From: Caulobacter sp. Root655 | Lineage (GTDB): Bacteria; Pseudomonadota; Alphaproteobacteria; Caulobacterales; Caulobacteraceae | Length of the DNA: 64,000 bases | Assembly: GCF_001427665.1 (NCBI RefSeq) | Contig: NZ_LMHC01000023.1 | Coordinates: forward strand, 263,170 to 327,169 | Direction of reading: 5' to 3' | In this document: positions 42,128 to 50,280 of the stretch, piece by piece | Position numbering within the stretch: position 1 is the first letter of the stretch | Layout of the letters: each line of letters starts with the position of its first letter | The notes under the pieces: model-generated | What the model saw: only the letters and a program-made list of their open reading frames with translations | What the model was told of the DNA's origin: nothing | Database searches by the model: none | Position numbers and translations under genes: made by a program

Positions 42128-43504
42128 CTAGATCTGCGCCAAGGCGAAAACGAGCAAGGCGGTGAGAAGCACGACGAAGGAGATAAGCGTAGAAGTCCAG
42201 ACGAAGAAGGTCTTGAAGACCGCCCCCACGATGCTGGAGCCGTAGGCCCCGCGCAGGGTTTGGAACAGGTTGATGGGGGTCCAGATCATCAGCAGCACGA
42301 ACCACCATTTCCGGACGGGGTCGGGCAGCACCAAGCCCAAGGCGTTGGTCAGGAACGAGAACGACAGGAGGTTGGTGGCCACGATCAGGTGGTCGTAGAT
42401 GAAGTACTGCCGCTTGTTGACGTAGACCAGCGCCAGGCTCAGCCCCAGCATCGGCAGCAGCAGCACCGCCAGGCGGTGGCCCCAGCCGAACATCACGACC
42501 ATGTAGTATTCGGGATTTTCCAGGGCCTTGGCCAAGCCGGTCTTGAACCAGTGCGCCTTCTGTCCGGGCTTGGCGTGAGCGCTCGTGGCGGCCGGCGCGG
42601 CATGGCCTTCATCGCCCGTGGTGACCACCGGGTCGCCGTGCTCGGGCGCGGTGACGGTCGTTCCGGCCTCGGGCACATTGATCGTGACGCCGCCGAACTT
42701 GCCGTTTTCGACCGAAGCCGAGCGGATCCGCTGGGCCGCGGCCTTGCGCATCTTGTCGTCGGCCTCAAGCAACTCCTGAGCGGCCAGCGGATTGGTTTGC
42801 AGGTGGTCGGCCTTGGCGATGGCCTCGGCGTAGCGGGTCTGGGCCTTGGCCACGTCGGCCTGATAGTCGATCGGAGCCTTGGCGACGGCGTCCTGGTAAT
42901 CCTTCTGGACCTTGGCGCGGTCCTCGTCCGGATCCTTCAGACTCTCGTCGCGGTCCTTGGCCGCAGAAGCCAGGATTTCGTCGCGATCCCTGGCGGCGTC
43001 GGCGAGCCGCTCGTCACGGTTCTTGGCGGCCTCGACACGCATGCGGCCGGCCTCGGCGGCCCGTCCCTGTGGCGTGGCCAGGGCCTCGGCACGCTTGTGG
43101 GCGTCTTCCTCGGCATGGTGCTGCACCGAATGGATGGCGTGCTCGGCCGCGAAAATGAACAGCAGCAGGGCCACAAGGAAGGTGCGGAACGGCGGCACAT
43201 GCCGCACGATGCGGCCTTCCATATAGTCCTTGGCCAACTTGCCAGGCTGGAAGAACAGCGCCGGCAAGGTCAGGGCCAGACGGCCGTCGAGGTGGAACAT
43301 CCCCTCGATCGCCTCCCAGATCAGATGCAGGATCGAGCGCTTGTGATTGTCGCCGTTCTGGCCGCATTCGTGGCAGTACGGGCCTTCCAGCGCCGCGCCG
43401 CAATTGGCGCAGGGCTGACCGACACCCGTGAACGGGTGCTTCTTCCGTCGCTTGAAGAACTCGGTGAACGAGTCCGCCGCCGCCGCTTCCAGTTCGCCCG
43501 TCAT
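42128..43504 (-). CDS. DUF3667 membrane protein
   Basis: 458 residues. A zinc-ribbon-like N-terminus 'CANCGAALEGPYCHECGQ' (two C-x-x-C pairs) precedes a DUF3667 segment 'RSILHLIWEAIEGMFHLDGRLALTLPALFFQPGKLAKDYMEGR' and a first helix 'TFLVALLLFIFAAEHAI'. A charged, helical region of about 130 residues rich in repeats of the type 'RDRDEILASAAKDRDE' (coiled coil) follows, then three helices at the C-terminus. Function unknown. It lies between the hydratase and the carboxylase alpha genes with only 10 and 17 bases on its sides, so it is part of the leucine operon's transcript. Confidence 0.78.
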   Translation of the reverse strand: MTGELEAAAADSFTEFFKRRKKHPFTGVGQPCANCGAALEGPYCHECGQNGDNHKRSILHLIWEAIEGMFHLDGRLALTLPALFFQPGKLAKDYMEGRIVRHVPPFRTFLVALLLFIFAAEHAIHSVQHHAEEDAHKRAEALATPQGRAAEAGRMRVEAAKNRDERLADAARDRDEILASAAKDRDESLKDPDEDRAKVQKDYQDAVAKAPIDYQADVAKAQTRYAEAIAKADHLQTNPLAAQELLEADDKMRKAAAQRIRSASVENGKFGGVTINVPEAGTTVTAPEHGDPVVTTGDEGHAAPAATSAHAKPGQKAHWFKTGLAKALENPEYYMVVMFGWGHRLAVLLLPMLGLSLALVYVNKRQYFIYDHLIVATNLLSFSFLTNALGLVLPDPVRKWWFVLLMIWTPINLFQTLRGAYGSSIVGAVFKTFFVWTSTLISFVVLLTALLVFALAQI

Positions 43505-43521
43505 ATTGCCCCTGCTCGACT

Positions 43522-44349
43522 CTAGATGGTCCAGCTGGGTTTACGGCGTTCGAGGAACGCGCGCACGCCTTCTTGTCCTTCGTCCGACACCCGCCGGCGA
43601 GCGATGCGTTTTGCCGTTTCCTCGATCAGGCCCCGGTCGATTTTCTGGTCGACCAGGTCGTTGACCAGGGCCTTGGCGTCGCCGATCGCGCCGGGGGCGC
43701 AGGCGGCGACCTCCTCGATCAGGGCGTCCTGGGCGGCCTCCAGGCCGGCGGCGTCGTCGAACACCTCGTCGACCAGGCCGTAGCTCCAGGCCGCGTCGGC
43801 GTCGAATACCCGGCCGGTGGCGAACAGCAGCTTGGCGGTGCGCGGGCCGAGCGCCGCGATCACATAGGGGCTGATGGTGGCCGGGGTCAGGCCCAGCTTG
43901 ACCTCCGAGAAGGCGAACTTGGCGTCGGCCGTGGCCAGGGCGTGGTCGCAGGCGGCGACCAGGCCGGCCCCGCCGCCGAACGCCGGGCCTTCGACCAGGG
44001 CCACGGTCAGGGCCGGGACGTCGTGCAGGGCCTTGAGCATGTGGGCCAGGCCCAGGGCGTCGTCGCGGTTGTCGTCCTCGCTCCAGTCGGCGGCCGAGGC
44101 CATCCATTCCAGGTCGGCGCCGGCGCTGAACGTCCCGCCCACCCCGCGCAGGAAGACGATCCGCACGCCCTCGGCCCCGTGCAGGGTCTCGAACGCCTGG
44201 TGCAGGGCGGCGATGGTGGCGGCGTCGAAGGCGTTCTTCTTGGCCGGACGGTTGATCCAGACGGTCACCGCGCCGCCTTCCGTGGAATCAATGTGGACCA
44301 GCGGGCTCATGGCGTCGGTGTCGGGAACCTCGGCGATCGGATTGGTCAT
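43522..44349 (-). CDS. liuC: Enoyl-CoA hydratase, methylglutaconyl type
   Basis: 275 residues, crotonase fold: 'VTVWINRPAKKNAFDAATIAALHQAFETLHG', 'VRIVFLRGVGGTFSAGADLEWM' (oxyanion hole A-G-A-D-L), 'VEGPAFGGGAGLVAACDHALATADAKFAFSEVKLGLTPATISPYV' with Glu residues in the active-site helix. Lying between the carboxylase genes, it is best read as methylglutaconyl-CoA hydratase, the step after methylcrotonyl-CoA carboxylation. The ATG used may have about 13 extra residues before a second Met; start uncertain. Confidence 0.87.
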   Translation of the reverse strand: MTNPIAEVPDTDAMSPLVHIDSTEGGAVTVWINRPAKKNAFDAATIAALHQAFETLHGAEGVRIVFLRGVGGTFSAGADLEWMASAADWSEDDNRDDALGLAHMLKALHDVPALTVALVEGPAFGGGAGLVAACDHALATADAKFAFSEVKLGLTPATISPYVIAALGPRTAKLLFATGRVFDADAAWSYGLVDEVFDDAAGLEAAQDALIEEVAACAPGAIGDAKALVNDLVDQKIDRGLIEETAKRIARRRVSDEGQEGVRAFLERRKPSWTI

Positions 44350-44432
44350 CAGATTTTCCTAGTTTTCCGGATGAAACGTAGTCCGACTCTGGCCTGGCGA
44401 CGTTGTGCGCCTTCGCATGACACTCGGTAGGA

Positions 44433-44969
44433 TCAACATTTTACCAGCGGGTCGGGGTTGGCGCCGTTCCTGGCCAGGATCGTCCAAATCTTTCTATAGT
44501 TACGGCACAACCTAACTCGATCAATGGACACGCCGGCGTCCTTCATCTCTCGTTCGAAATCCTTGGGGTTCTCTACCACCAATTGATAGGAGAAAATTCC
44601 GGTTGGGTCTGCCGATACATCATTTGCCCAATATTCTATTTCCTTTGCGTATCCAGACCCCCATATTTTTCGATCAGATTTTGCCTTCTTCAATATGAAG
44701 AAAACTTCTTCAATGTACAACATTTCTTCGCTGTATGAACTTCCGTCTTTCATTATATTTTTTATGCATTTGTCATTGTCTGAGTGTGCATGCCACACAT
44801 AAATGCATCTAAAATTTTCTTTCGCCGTTTCGTGCTCTACAAAAATTTCCCCCGAAGCGTTCAGCGCTATATCCGCTGCCAGTCGAGATTGAATCCTTAC
44901 GCTCCAGTAAGTCAGCAATAGCGCCAGCATGGCTATCAACACTCCACCGTGCTTAATAGCTATCGCCAC
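44433..44969 (-). CDS. AT-rich orphan membrane-anchored protein
   Basis: 178 residues from a GTG that overlaps the last ten bases of the small gene upstream; a longer TTG frame to 45134 reads basic, unlikely sequence. One N-terminal helix ('GGVLIAMLALLLTYWSVRIQ') anchors a 150-residue hydrophilic domain ('ASGEIFVEHETAKENFRCIYVWHAHSDNDKCIKN', 'SYSEEMLYIEEVFFILKKAKSDRKIWGSGYAKEIEYWANDV', 'YQLVVENPKDFEREMKDAG') with four cysteines. I recognise no family. Codon use and base composition are unlike the neighbours: bases 44701-44820 contain 38 G+C of 120. It sits between the hydratase and carboxylase beta genes as a likely acquired insert. Confidence 0.65.
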   Translation of the reverse strand: MAIAIKHGGVLIAMLALLLTYWSVRIQSRLAADIALNASGEIFVEHETAKENFRCIYVWHAHSDNDKCIKNIMKDGSSYSEEMLYIEEVFFILKKAKSDRKIWGSGYAKEIEYWANDVSADPTGIFSYQLVVENPKDFEREMKDAGVSIDRVRLCRNYRKIWTILARNGANPDPLVKC

Positions 44970-45115
44970 GCGCCTACGACACGCTTTTGCCTGTACTTTC
45001 GAACCACTCTTACGACGACGGTCGCTGTCACAATTAACAGCGCTATGAAAAGCACCATCGCGAGGACGTCGAAACACCGCGCCAAACCGTCGAAAAACCA
45101 CGTTTGATAGGACAC
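44960..45115 (-). CDS. Small single-pass membrane protein, 51 residues
   Basis: GTG start (45113-45115) behind TAAGGG; it reads SYQTWFFDGLARCFDVLA, then a strongly hydrophobic stretch MVLFIALLIVTATVVVRVV and a basic tail RKYRQKRVVGAWR. That is the layout of a real bitopic membrane protein with an inward basic tail (positive-inside). It begins 22 bases after the stop of the carboxylase beta gene and overlaps the start of the next gene by 10 bases, so the two form a coupled unit. No family known. Its size explains why it would be overlooked. Confidence 0.55.
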   Translation of the reverse strand: MSYQTWFFDGLARCFDVLAMVLFIALLIVTATVVVRVVRKYRQKRVVGAWR

Positions 45116-45137
45116 CCCTTACCCCCGCGTGCAATTT

Positions 45138-46745
45138 TCACATTCTAAACACACCGAAGGTTGTTTCGGCTATCGGGGCGTTGAGGCTGGCGCTGATCGC
45201 CAGGCCCAGCACGTCGCGGGTCTGGACCGGGTCGATGATGCCGTCGTCCCACAGGCGGGCGGTGGCGTGGTAGGGGTCGCCCTCGGCCTCGTAGCGGGCG
45301 CGGATCGGGGCCTTGAAGGCCTCCTCGTCCTCGGCGGCCCAGGTCTCGCCCTTGGCCTCCAGGCCGTCGCGCTTGATTGTGGACAGCACGCTGGCCGCCT
45401 GCTCGCCGCCCATCACCGAGATTCTCGAATTTGGCCAGGTGAACAGGAAGCGCGGGCTGTAGGCCCGGCCGCACATGCCGTAGTTGCCCGCGCCGAACGA
45501 CCCGCCGATCAGCACGGTGAACTTCGGCACCTCGGCCGAAGCCACCGCCGTGACCAGCTTGGCGCCATCCTTGGCGATGCCGCCGGCCTCGTACTTGCCG
45601 CCGACCATGAAGCCCGAGATGTTCTGCAGGAACACCAGCGGGATCTTGCGCTTGCAGGCCAGCTCGATGAAGTGCGCGCCCTTCACGGCGCTCTCGCTGA
45701 ACAGCACGCCGTTATTGGCCAGGATGGCCACCGGCTGGCCCCAGATGCGGGCGAAACCGCAGACCAGGGTCGTGCCGTACAGCGCCTTGAACTCGTCGAA
45801 CACGCTGCCGTCGACGATGCGGGCAATCACCTCGCGCACGTCGTAGGGCGCGCGCACGTCGGTGGGGACGACGCCATACAGCTCGGCCGGGTCATGGACC
45901 GGGGGCTTGGCCTCGTGGATCTCGGTCTCGACGCGCTTGGTGGTGTTGAGGTTGGCGACGATCGAGCGGACGATCTCCAGCGCGTGCTCGTCGTCATTGG
46001 CCACATGGTCGACCACGCCCGAGCGCCGGCCGTGGGTGTCGGCCCCGCCCAGTTCCTCGGCCGAGATCACCTCGCCGGTGGCCGCCTTCACCAGCGGCGG
46101 GCCGGCCAGGAAGATGGTGCCCTGGTCGCGGACGATCACCGTCTCGTCGCTCATGGCCGGCACATAGGCCCCGCCGGCCGTGCACGAGCCCATGACGCAG
46201 GCGATCTGGGCGATGCCCGCCGCGCTCATCCGGGCCTGGTTGAAGAAGATGCGGCCGAAGTGGTCGCGGTCGGGGAACACCTCGGCCTGGTGCGGCAGGT
46301 TGGCCCCGCCGCTGTCGACCAGATAGACGCACGGCAGGCGGTTCTGCTGGGCGATCTCCTGGGCGCGAAGGTGCTTCTTCACGGTCATCGGGAAATAGGC
46401 GCCGCCCTTCACGGTGGCGTCGTTGGCGACGATCATCACCTCGCGGCCCGAGACCCGGCCGATACCGGTGATCACGCCGGCCCCGGGAGCCTCGCCGTTG
46501 TAGAGGTCGCAGGCCGCCAGCTGGCCGATCTCCAGGAACGGCGAGCCGGGGTCCAGCAGGCGCTCGACCCGCTGGCGCGGCAGCAGCTTGCCCCGCGCCG
46601 CGTGGCGGTGGCGGGCGGTTTCCGGACCGCCGAGGGCCGCGGTCGCGACCCTTTCGCGCAGCGCCTGGGCCAGGGCCCGGTTGTGCGCGGCGTTTTTGGC
46701 GAACGACTCGCCGTTTTTGTCGATACCCGTGTTCATCTTCGGCAT
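45138..46745 (-). CDS. liuB: Methylcrotonyl-CoA carboxylase beta subunit
   Basis: 535 residues of the carboxyltransferase family: '[33 protein letters not shown]', '[85 protein letters not shown]' and '[43 protein letters not shown]'. The Q[17 protein letters not shown] motif is characteristic of methylcrotonyl-CoA carboxylase beta subunits. It transfers CO2 from biotin to methylcrotonyl-CoA. It heads the run of minus-strand genes toward the alpha subunit. The ATG at 46743-46745 or the one at 46734-46736 may be used. Confidence 0.93.
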
Positions 46746-46837
46746 TAGCGAGGCATAGCCTTTTCCGTTTCGTCCCGAAAGCCGCAGTTTTTGACCTTCG
46801 ATGGCCAAGTTCAGCGGTTCAAGTTAGCGTCCCACCC

Positions 46838-48622
46838 GTGGTCACCCTGCCCGACTTCATGGCCGATACGGCCCTCGCCCGGCTCTTCGCGCAAGAACAT
46901 CGCGAAGGCGACGCCGCCTGGTTCTCCTTGCCCGGCGGCGCGACACTCTACGCGCCCGGCGAGGCGGCGGACTATCTCTACTTCCTGCGCACCGGCCGGT
47001 TGGGCGCGTTTCGGCGGGAGGAAGGCCAGGAGCCGCAGTTCCTGGGGGTGATCCGCCCCGGCGAGCCGGCCGGCGAGATGGCGATGATCGCCGGCGCCCC
47101 GCATTCGGCCAACCTGGTGGCCCTGCGCGATTCGGAAATCCTCGCCCTGCCCCGCGCCGCCTTCTTCGAGGCGGTCGAGCGCGATCCGGCGGTGATGATC
47201 GAGCTGTCGCGGCTGATGATCCGCCGGGCCCGCCAGGCCGGGGCCCACGCCTCGATCGGCGACCCGTCGGTCTACGGCTTCATCGCCGTCGAGCCTGGCA
47301 AGCTGATCCGCCCGGTCGTCGAGCGCATCGCCCACGCCATCCTGGCCCTGGGCTATTCGGTCACCGTCGAGGGGGCCGAGTCGTTGCTGGCCCCGACCGA
47401 ATGGTTCAGCAATGTCGAGCGTCGCCACGACTTCGTGCTGTACGTGGCCGAGGCCAGCGAGACCGCCTGGAAGCACGTGGTCGGGCGCCAGGTGGACCGC
47501 CTGTTCCGCGTCGGCCAGGGCGACCGCAAGCCGCCGCCGGTCATCCCGTCCTACGCCTCGGGCCCTTTGCAGGACCAGCGCCTGGTCGACCTGATCCTGC
47601 TGCAGCCGGCCAGCGTCACCCATCCGAAGGGGTCGGCCGAGTGGCTGAACGCCACCCAGGCCGCCCGCCTGTTCCATCTGCGCGAGAACGGCATGGCCGA
47701 CGTCGAGCGCCTGGCGCGGGTGCTGACCGGGCAGTCGGTCGGGTTGGTGCTGTCGGGCGGCGGAGCTCGCGCCTACGCCCATGTCGGCGCCATCCAGGCC
47801 TTGCGCGAGCGCGGCGTGCCGATCGACTTCGTCGGCGGCTCGTCGATGGGCGCCGTGGTCGCCGCCGGCCTGGCCATGGGCTGGGACGACGGCGAGATGG
47901 AGACCCGCATCCGCAAGGCCTTCGTGGATTCCAGCCCGCTGGACGACATCGCCTTCCCGCTGGTGGCCATGACCCGGGGCCTGAAGGTCAAGGCGCGGCT
48001 GGAGGAGCATTTCGACGACATCGAGATCGCCGACCTGTGGTTGCCGTTCTTCTGCGTCTCCTCGAATCTGACCTCGGGGGCCTATCACCTGCACCGCCAG
48101 GGCGTGCTGCAGGACGCCCTAAGGGCCTCGATCTCGCTGCCCGGCGTGCTGCCGCCGGTCGCCGACGGCAATTCGGTGCTGGTCGACGGCGCGGTGATGA
48201 AGAACTTCCCGGCCGACGTGATGCGCGCCTTCCAGCTGGGTCCGATCGTCGGAGTCGACGTCACGCGCGGCCGCAGCATCACCGCCGAGGACGTCGATCG
48301 CCCGGCCTCGCTGTGGACCTGGTTCTGGTCGGGCGAGTGGCGCAAGGGTCCGCCGATCGTCGCCCTGCTGATGCGGGCCGCCACGGTGTCGACCGGCCGC
48401 GACCTGACCGCCAGCCGCGAGGCCTCGGACGTGCTGATCACCCCCAAGCTCGACAAGATCGACATCCGCGACTGGAAGGCCTTCGAGCCCGCGGTCGCGG
48501 CCGGACGCACCGCCGCGGCGCTGGCGCTGGACAACCTGGGCAAGCCGGTCACCGAACTTCGTCGCCGCCCCAGCCTCGCCGACCTGGCCCGGGCCGCCGT
48601 CAGTAGCGCTGGGCGACCATGA
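46838..48622 (+). CDS. Patatin-like phospholipase with cyclic-nucleotide-binding domain
   Basis: 594 residues. N-terminal cNMP-binding domain (about 10-130: 'YAPGEAADYLYFLRTGRLGAF', 'IRPGEPAGEMAMIAGAPHSANLVALRDSEILALPRAAF'), a middle region, then a patatin domain from about 300: 'VGLVLSGGGARAYAHVGAIQALRERGVPIDFVGGSSMGAVVAA' with the oxyanion G-G-G-A-R and nucleophile S336 in G-x-S-x-G, and the dyad Asp D450 in 'VLVDGAV'. This is the bacterial NTE/PNPLA6-like arrangement; it should cleave phospholipids or lysophospholipids at the membrane. GTG start. Its end overlaps the convergent methyltransferase gene by 23 bases. Confidence 0.88.
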   Translation: MVTLPDFMADTALARLFAQEHREGDAAWFSLPGGATLYAPGEAADYLYFLRTGRLGAFRREEGQEPQFLGVIRPGEPAGEMAMIAGAPHSANLVALRDSEILALPRAAFFEAVERDPAVMIELSRLMIRRARQAGAHASIGDPSVYGFIAVEPGKLIRPVVERIAHAILALGYSVTVEGAESLLAPTEWFSNVERRHDFVLYVAEASETAWKHVVGRQVDRLFRVGQGDRKPPPVIPSYASGPLQDQRLVDLILLQPASVTHPKGSAEWLNATQAARLFHLRENGMADVERLARVLTGQSVGLVLSGGGARAYAHVGAIQALRERGVPIDFVGGSSMGAVVAAGLAMGWDDGEMETRIRKAFVDSSPLDDIAFPLVAMTRGLKVKARLEEHFDDIEIADLWLPFFCVSSNLTSGAYHLHRQGVLQDALRASISLPGVLPPVADGNSVLVDGAVMKNFPADVMRAFQLGPIVGVDVTRGRSITAEDVDRPASLWTWFWSGEWRKGPPIVALLMRAATVSTGRDLTASREASDVLITPKLDKIDIRDWKAFEPAVAAGRTAAALALDNLGKPVTELRRRPSLADLARAAVSSAGRP

Positions 48623-49647: not shown

Positions 49648-49770
49648 CGGTGATGATGCGGCCCCGGGTCGCGCTTATTCCCCCTTTGCGCGACCCGGGA
49701 GTGCCCGGCGCGCCTTGGCTTCAATCCAAGGTCGAGCTATGAACTCCCGAAGACTTTCGGGGAAAAAAGC

Positions 49771-50082
49771 ATGAAAAGATGGGTTTCCGCGCTCCTTGGC
49801 GCGGTCGGTGTTCTGTCGGTCGCCTCGCCAGCCGCCGCCTATAGCGAATGCGAGGCCAAGGTCCTTGGCGCCTTCTACTCGCTGGAAGGCTATATCTGGA
49901 TCAACCTGGACAATGGCGGTGGCGCGGCGGTCGTCGATAAGACCGACCCGAACAGGGAAGCCTACCTCTCGATCCTGCTCACCGCCCGGGCGACGAACAA
50001 GCCGATCAGGATCCGCTTCAACCACGACGCCTCCACATGCACCACGACCAACTACGACATCACCGGAATCTGGATCCCGTAG
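49771..50082 (+). CDS. Small secreted protein
   Basis: 103 residues with a clear signal peptide (WVSALLGAVGVLSVASPAAA, cut after AAA near 23). The mature part of about 80 residues, 'YSECEAKVLGAFYSLEGYIWINLDNGGGAAVVDKTDPNREAYLSILLTARATNKPIRIRFNHDASTCTTTNYDITGIWI', has two cysteines likely to form a disulphide and a beta-rich pattern. I recall no function; proteins of this kind occur in proteobacteria as hypothetical secreted proteins. It stands alone. Confidence 0.7.
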   Translation: MKRWVSALLGAVGVLSVASPAAAYSECEAKVLGAFYSLEGYIWINLDNGGGAAVVDKTDPNREAYLSILLTARATNKPIRIRFNHDASTCTTTNYDITGIWIP

Positions 50083-50280
50083 CCGACTTCCCGTCCTCGT
50101 TGGCTCCTGGACGGCGCCGTGGGCACATGGCCATCACGACGACAGAAAGGCTATCCCGCTGCCCTGAACTTCGGCGCCGCGACGTTGCGGCGTAGTGTCG
50201 CCATATTACCCTCTTTGCAGAACCGCCGATCGGCGCCCATATTCCTCTTGTGTTGTTCAACAACTGAAAGGAGGTGACCA

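Follow-up and report, generated by a model that had tools for sequence, protein, structure and literature searches.

Probable acquisition of a frame-split gene for a rare two-helix envelope protein between two leucine-degradation genes of Caulobacter sp. Root655

In Caulobacter, small non-homologous segments lying between homologous flanks have been described as being swapped rather than added, and, in the part of that work considered here, most of the replaced regions show no significant difference in GC content, with the exception of those containing phage genes or mobile elements (Ely 2020, PMC6986707). The locus described in this work belongs to the window, i.e., the whole stretch of 64,000 nucleotides of Caulobacter sp. 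Root655 that was analysed, and it resembles the cases reported in that part of the paper in being a one- or two-gene non-homologous segment swapped between collinear homologous flanks, with abrupt borders and with a content that differs at the same site among relatives. Unlike that pattern, in which low GC is mainly a feature of regions carrying phage genes or mobile elements, the window segment is low in GC and comes without an identified donor carrying it, no close one having been found among what was searched. The pattern of the tract fits the segment swapping so described; the existence of this process in Caulobacter and the variability of the slot support such an explanation, whereas the low GC content, compared with the mostly unchanged GC of the regions treated in the same part of that paper, is a point against it. 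The locus likely harbors a two-helix envelope protein gene of a rare Caulobacteraceae type, in an allele that was acquired horizontally and whose frame is split; it is a passenger between two leucine-degradation genes. The case is thus an example of a known process having a rare protein as its cargo.

Two minus-strand ORFs overlapping by 10 bases (44960-44969) are located between the carboxylase-beta and the hydratase genes, exactly as reported in the preliminary description of this DNA. The 51-aa ORF (44960..45115) starts with GTG and encodes a single hydrophobic helix followed by a basic C-terminus; the 178-aa ORF (44433..44969), which also starts with GTG, encodes a second membrane helix and a domain of about 140 residues with four cysteines. 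The count of 38 G or C out of 120 bases given there for 44701-44820 proved to be exact. The window's lowest-GC 120-mers, starting at 44662-44664, contain 36/120 G or C, and 120-mers with 40 or fewer start solely in the 200-base bin from 44600, the GC content of the window being 0.68. The statement that codon usage follows this AT-richness was confirmed as well, the third-position GC being 0.50 in the 178-aa ORF and 0.65 in the 51-aa ORF, vs 0.92 in both neighbour genes. By GC content at the codon positions, 45120-44941 is consistent with the 51-aa frame, and the regions around 44940-44761 and 44640-44461 with that of the 178-aa ORF; the signal is weak across the AT-richest middle (44820-44581). 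Both ORFs are probably coding. Upstream, the 178-aa frame stays open to a TTG at 45134 (233 codons). All the five starts submitted to a ribosome-binding scan, including that of the hydratase gene, reach 4/6, and an Rfam scan of 43400-47000 gave no match.

The comparison with the closest sister (G021, loci L003 and L044) reveals the borders of a replaced segment (44350..45137, minus strand). On the carboxylase side, a single blastn block (96.4% over 4576 columns) starts from window position 45138, while on the hydratase side another single block (88.6% over 4235 columns) ends at 44350; between 40131 and 49709, the similarity is broken solely at 44350-45138. In the sister, the slot contains a GNAT gene (PF13302, E 2.2e-21). 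The hydratase gene, its end aside, shows 0-3 differences per 60 bases from its counterpart in the sister, and the sequence up to the hydratase ATG has also been replaced. The carboxylase gene shows 0-7 differences per 60 over the last 709 bases preceding the stop, until the final 49, which contain 9 mismatches; the three 60-base blocks ahead of these are free of them. All nine are embedded in the last 33 bases, the first being at 45171, i.e., inside the gene and ahead of its stop; the donor-like carboxylase-beta end, consisting of the last 11 codons and the stop, can be placed at 45138..45173 (minus strand). At the protein level, this tail differs from that of the sister by two residues (P to A and D to E), and its codons include ATA, ACA, GGT, TTT, and AGA. 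The GC content of the last 36 carboxylase bases preceding the stop is 0.47, the lowest among the loci listed (0.53-0.69 in the others); the next lowest value, 0.53, is that of G188, one of the Phenylobacterium genomes in which a relative of the 178-aa protein is encoded (see below). As far as sequence comparison can establish it, the segment has been acquired and, together with the last carboxylase codons, is foreign when set against the closest sister. The idea of an acquisition, already advanced in the preliminary description, is supported by this sharp replacement tract and by the finding that, of the 75 genomes of the window's genus, the window's own alone gave a credible match to the 178-aa protein. 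Since foreign carboxylase codons are part of the tract, the incoming DNA must have held the end of a carboxylase gene, and the donor would have carried the gene in the same slot. The locus represents a well-bounded gene acquisition by segment swap within a catabolic cluster, in which the foreign tract remains visible even in synonymous codons of the adjacent enzyme gene. As a separate observation, the near-identical 11-mers CCGATAGCCGA and CCGATCGCCGA are located at the segment edges (45166-45176 and 44330-44340), possibly by chance.

Among the genomes searched, the relatives of the 178-aa protein are two Phenylobacterium proteins (identity of 37% with E 1.1e-28, and of 36% with E 1.7e-26), one from genome G188, whose contig matches NZ_JAUSCJ010000012.1 (a Phenylobacterium MAG), and the other from G219, of the same genus. 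Matches to the protein were found in 3 of the 299 genomes of the family sample, own included, in 2 of 101 Phenylobacterium genomes, in 1 of 398 in the order sample (its own), and in 2 of 385 in the class sample, where the additional match, in G847 (E 0.003, 16 bits, profile positions 14-67, corresponding to the helix region), was judged to be due to chance. Twelve other genomes of the window's genus gave matches that were set aside as weak (E 0.2-0.9). In all the three members found, the gene is located between the carboxylase-beta and the hydratase genes. Both relatives are single 235-aa proteins with two hydrophobic helices; the identity spans the second helix and the C-terminal domain, and the four cysteines of the 178-aa protein are all invariant in the three-row alignment (window and two relatives). 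The alignment demonstrates, at the sequence level, homology between the 178-aa protein and the part of the single Phenylobacterium slot protein that comprises its second helix and C-terminal domain. The two systems share the slot, a near-identical start distance, and the four cysteines; they differ in that the Phenylobacterium protein is one chain encoded by GC-rich codons (third-position GC of 0.89 and 0.91), whereas the window contains two ORFs with AT-rich codons. Between the two Phenylobacterium genes, dN is 0.065 and dS 0.526 (dN/dS 0.12), which shows that the 235-aa protein is under purifying selection in that genus. The preliminary description had considered that its reading would be refuted by the same pair being present, at the same place and with normal composition, in all relatives; in Phenylobacterium the gene indeed has the same place and a normal composition, but 2 of 101 genomes, not all, carry it. 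In the mapping across the genus that had been proposed there, no genome other than the window's own gave a credible match to the 178-aa protein, and the slot was variable (n = 57; see below). Scans by short peptide patterns, which can miss relatives, retrieved the already known Phenylobacterium contig alone when the three-row alignment was used on the genome collection, and nothing that could be confirmed when the single 178-aa protein was used on the genome and viral collections. No low-GC or close donor was found among the genomes and collections searched, which is a point against the explanation preferred here.

Since the Phenylobacterium homologue is one 235-aa gene in the same slot, the ORF pair is probably one two-helix gene of the same type that has been split by a frame change. 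The 51-aa ORF starts 22 nt after the carboxylase stop, compared with 23 and 22 nt in the relatives, and its layout (one helix followed by a basic stretch) matches their first helix in position and architecture; from these features, we infer that it encodes the first helix of the same protein as the 178-aa ORF. Its similarity to the N-terminus of the relatives is not significant, the local score being reached by 724 and the global score by 245 of 2000 shuffles; the splitting is therefore argued from position, length, and the pattern of helix and charges. The frame periodicity switches near the overlap, where the window, unlike its relatives, changes frame; apart from this, the 229 codons of both frames are uninterrupted. 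Programmed frameshifting was disfavoured, since no in-frame slippery heptamer of the type X XXY YYZ is present in the 51-aa ORF. The two independent membrane partners proposed in the preliminary description are thus not the best reading of a locus for which Phenylobacterium has, at the same place, one gene encoding one two-helix protein: the comparison points to one ancestral protein, and the split-gene reading probably replaces the two-partner one.

It is known that positively charged loops of membrane proteins tend to be on the cytoplasmic side (the positive-inside rule). In the relatives, positive charges are found between the two helices (RLGRKRRIR), and in the window they are located at the end of the 51-aa ORF (RKYRQKR). 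This arrangement suggests that the interhelix loop is cytoplasmic and the cysteine-bearing domain periplasmic, and our conjecture is that the product is an envelope protein with two membrane helices and, on the outer side, a helical domain bonded by disulfides. The structure models are all-helical and of low confidence (mean pLDDT 55.6 and 58.1), so that topology and disulfides are predictions. The following series of events can be proposed. A lower-GC relative, in which the segment would likewise lie behind the carboxylase gene, would have been the donor; two crossovers, one in each of the conserved genes flanking the slot, would have swapped out its resident content, which, as in the sister, may have been a GNAT gene; and the loss of one base (or the gain of two) near the overlap would have separated the first helix, i.e., the 51-aa ORF, from the rest. 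The transcript of the leucine cluster would carry the ORF pair. The first helix would be oriented N-out/C-in, with its basic RKYRQKR end inside, and the second in-out, leaving the C-terminal helical domain, with two putative disulfides, in the periplasm. Stop-start coupling of translation may still allow the two chains to pair; alternatively, the gene may be undergoing decay.

What the frame change means for the living strain can be read in different ways. That a single gene has been broken by a recent mutation or by a sequencing error, being a pseudogene or, in the living strain, still one chain, is a serious possibility that falls a little short of probable: the relatives are intact single genes and the missing slippery site speaks against a programmed event, whereas the integrity of both frames outside the break implies that any decay would be recent. 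A sequencing error could be the cause of the split. It is also possible, although this seems doubtful, that the two genes are real and that a fission has generated one-helix proteins, translationally coupled through the GTGGCGATAG overlap and forming a two-chain complex. Both frames are open with a coding-like periodicity outside the AT-richest middle, and a GTG start lies inside the overlap, but the sole relatives found are one-chain and one base would restore a single frame. A broader scenario, which we regard as unlikely, is that Caulobacteraceae preferentially use the gap following the carboxylase gene as a docking site for envelope proteins that lack known relatives and depend on the leucine-cluster promoter, and that fission has turned the AT-rich gene into a true two-chain complex on its way from a low-GC relative, as yet unsampled, which keeps it in the same place.

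Other readings concern the origin and the function of the segment. Elements that target gene ends replace those ends with nearly synonymous versions, and the last 11 carboxylase codons have indeed been exchanged for a nearly synonymous foreign version, as would be expected if the segment were the remnant of a site-specific mobile element targeting the carboxylase 3' end and bringing a substitute for it. This is nevertheless very unlikely, as the insert does not contain a copy of the carboxylase tail above shuffled sequences (own tail 264/300 direct and 265/300 inverted; tail of the sister 83/300 direct and 41/300 inverted, not above chance), the tail protein of G219 and G188 is identical to that of L070, which is without the gene, and the replacement also reaches the hydratase ATG. 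No repeated attachment sequence was found at both edges of the segment and no integrase among the two ORFs and five neighbour genes scanned. Directly ahead of the hydratase start there is an inverted 9-base match to the carboxylase tail of the sister, of a kind reached by 41/300 shuffles. A toxin-antitoxin, immunity, or anti-phage unit, an idea put forward in the preliminary description, would account for a small and a larger membrane protein that are AT-rich and patchily distributed (1/75 genus genomes), but it appears highly improbable, given that the relatives are one-chain, that the slots of other genomes hold other kinds of genes, and that neither the profile libraries nor the phage, plasmid, and viral-contig collections gave support to it. 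For both proteins, Pfam, PHROGs, PADLOC, and NCBIfam yielded sub-threshold matches alone, in agreement with the preliminary description, in which neither could be matched to a family. All were judged to be due to chance: DUF1889 (0.056) and Csn2 (0.014) for the 178-aa protein, MTABC_N (0.0046), phrog_21248 (0.03), and ArlG (0.1) for the 51-aa protein, and DUF2231 (0.037) and TgpA_N (0.07) for the relatives. In the phage, plasmid, and viral-contig collections no credible relative of the 178-aa protein was detected, two plasmid matches (E 3 and 4) being attributed to chance, and the pattern of the three-row alignment retrieved nothing from the viral collection. Among solved structures searched by sequence, the best E was 0.16; fold searches gave nothing with E <=0.001, a result that is not informative, as the query was a low-confidence model. 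None of the four family libraries searched thus has a model for this rare membrane protein, and the cargo of its slot differs among relatives.

The slot was read across the genus. The hydratase gene is present in 59 of 61 genomes, and the slot was read in 58 of these 59 (30 + 20 + 8 loci), G038 having been left out because its match lies at a contig end. The length could be determined at 57 loci (L057 ends too early; at L020, where the carboxylase match stops at residue 480, the gap was corrected) and is <=40 bp in 30, 41-100 in 8, 101-260 in 8, and >260 in 11. Several of the 101-260 bp slots carry palindromic repeats; such repeats fill the slot in L005, L006, L017, L018, L062, and L063 (the last seen in part). 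About eight kinds of cargo can be recognized, judged by eye and partly by Pfam. Besides the AT-rich ORF pair of the window, the slots longer than 260 bp include those of L003, L011, and L028, with a GNAT acetyltransferase gene (PF13302; Pfam test on L003 only), which shares slot and direction with the window pair but is an unrelated soluble enzyme of normal GC. Others hold a GIY-YIG gene between repeats (L064), a lipoprotein-like ORF (L101), secreted-like ORFs similar to each other by eye (L103 and L104), and ORFs on the other strand (L058 and L066). The slot of L067 (G052) contains a 745-bp insert with a GC content of 0.48, in which an ORF of about 245 aa encodes several hydrophobic stretches; it is a second AT-rich cargo, whose ORF looks unrelated and has no Pfam match.

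As a control, the gap between the hydratase and the carboxylase alpha genes could be read at 21 loci; it measures 1311-1407 bp at 18 of these, among them that of the window, and 51-66 bp at the other 3. This control is rough, as 9 of 30 loci are unreadable there and long inserts may be missed. In the window, this gap harbors a gene for a DUF3667 membrane protein (42128-43504). It was considered as a second insertion and then dropped, a gap of its length being present in those 18 loci; the presence of the same gene in the other long gaps is deduced from length, that of the window being the one tested. In Phenylobacterium, the corresponding gap is 2-59 bp in most readable loci and 1281 bp in L097. 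A short other-strand ORF is located just ahead of the hydratase gene in Phenylobacterium L039 (2159-2365), and also in L070, L073, L097, and L090; it ends in a hydrophobic, glycine-rich segment, and the one tested had no Pfam match. Finally, a second break with respect to the closest sister is found at 49709-50187 of the window (about 477 bp in the window vs about 40 bp in the sister), within which a 103-aa secreted-looking ORF is located (49771-50082).
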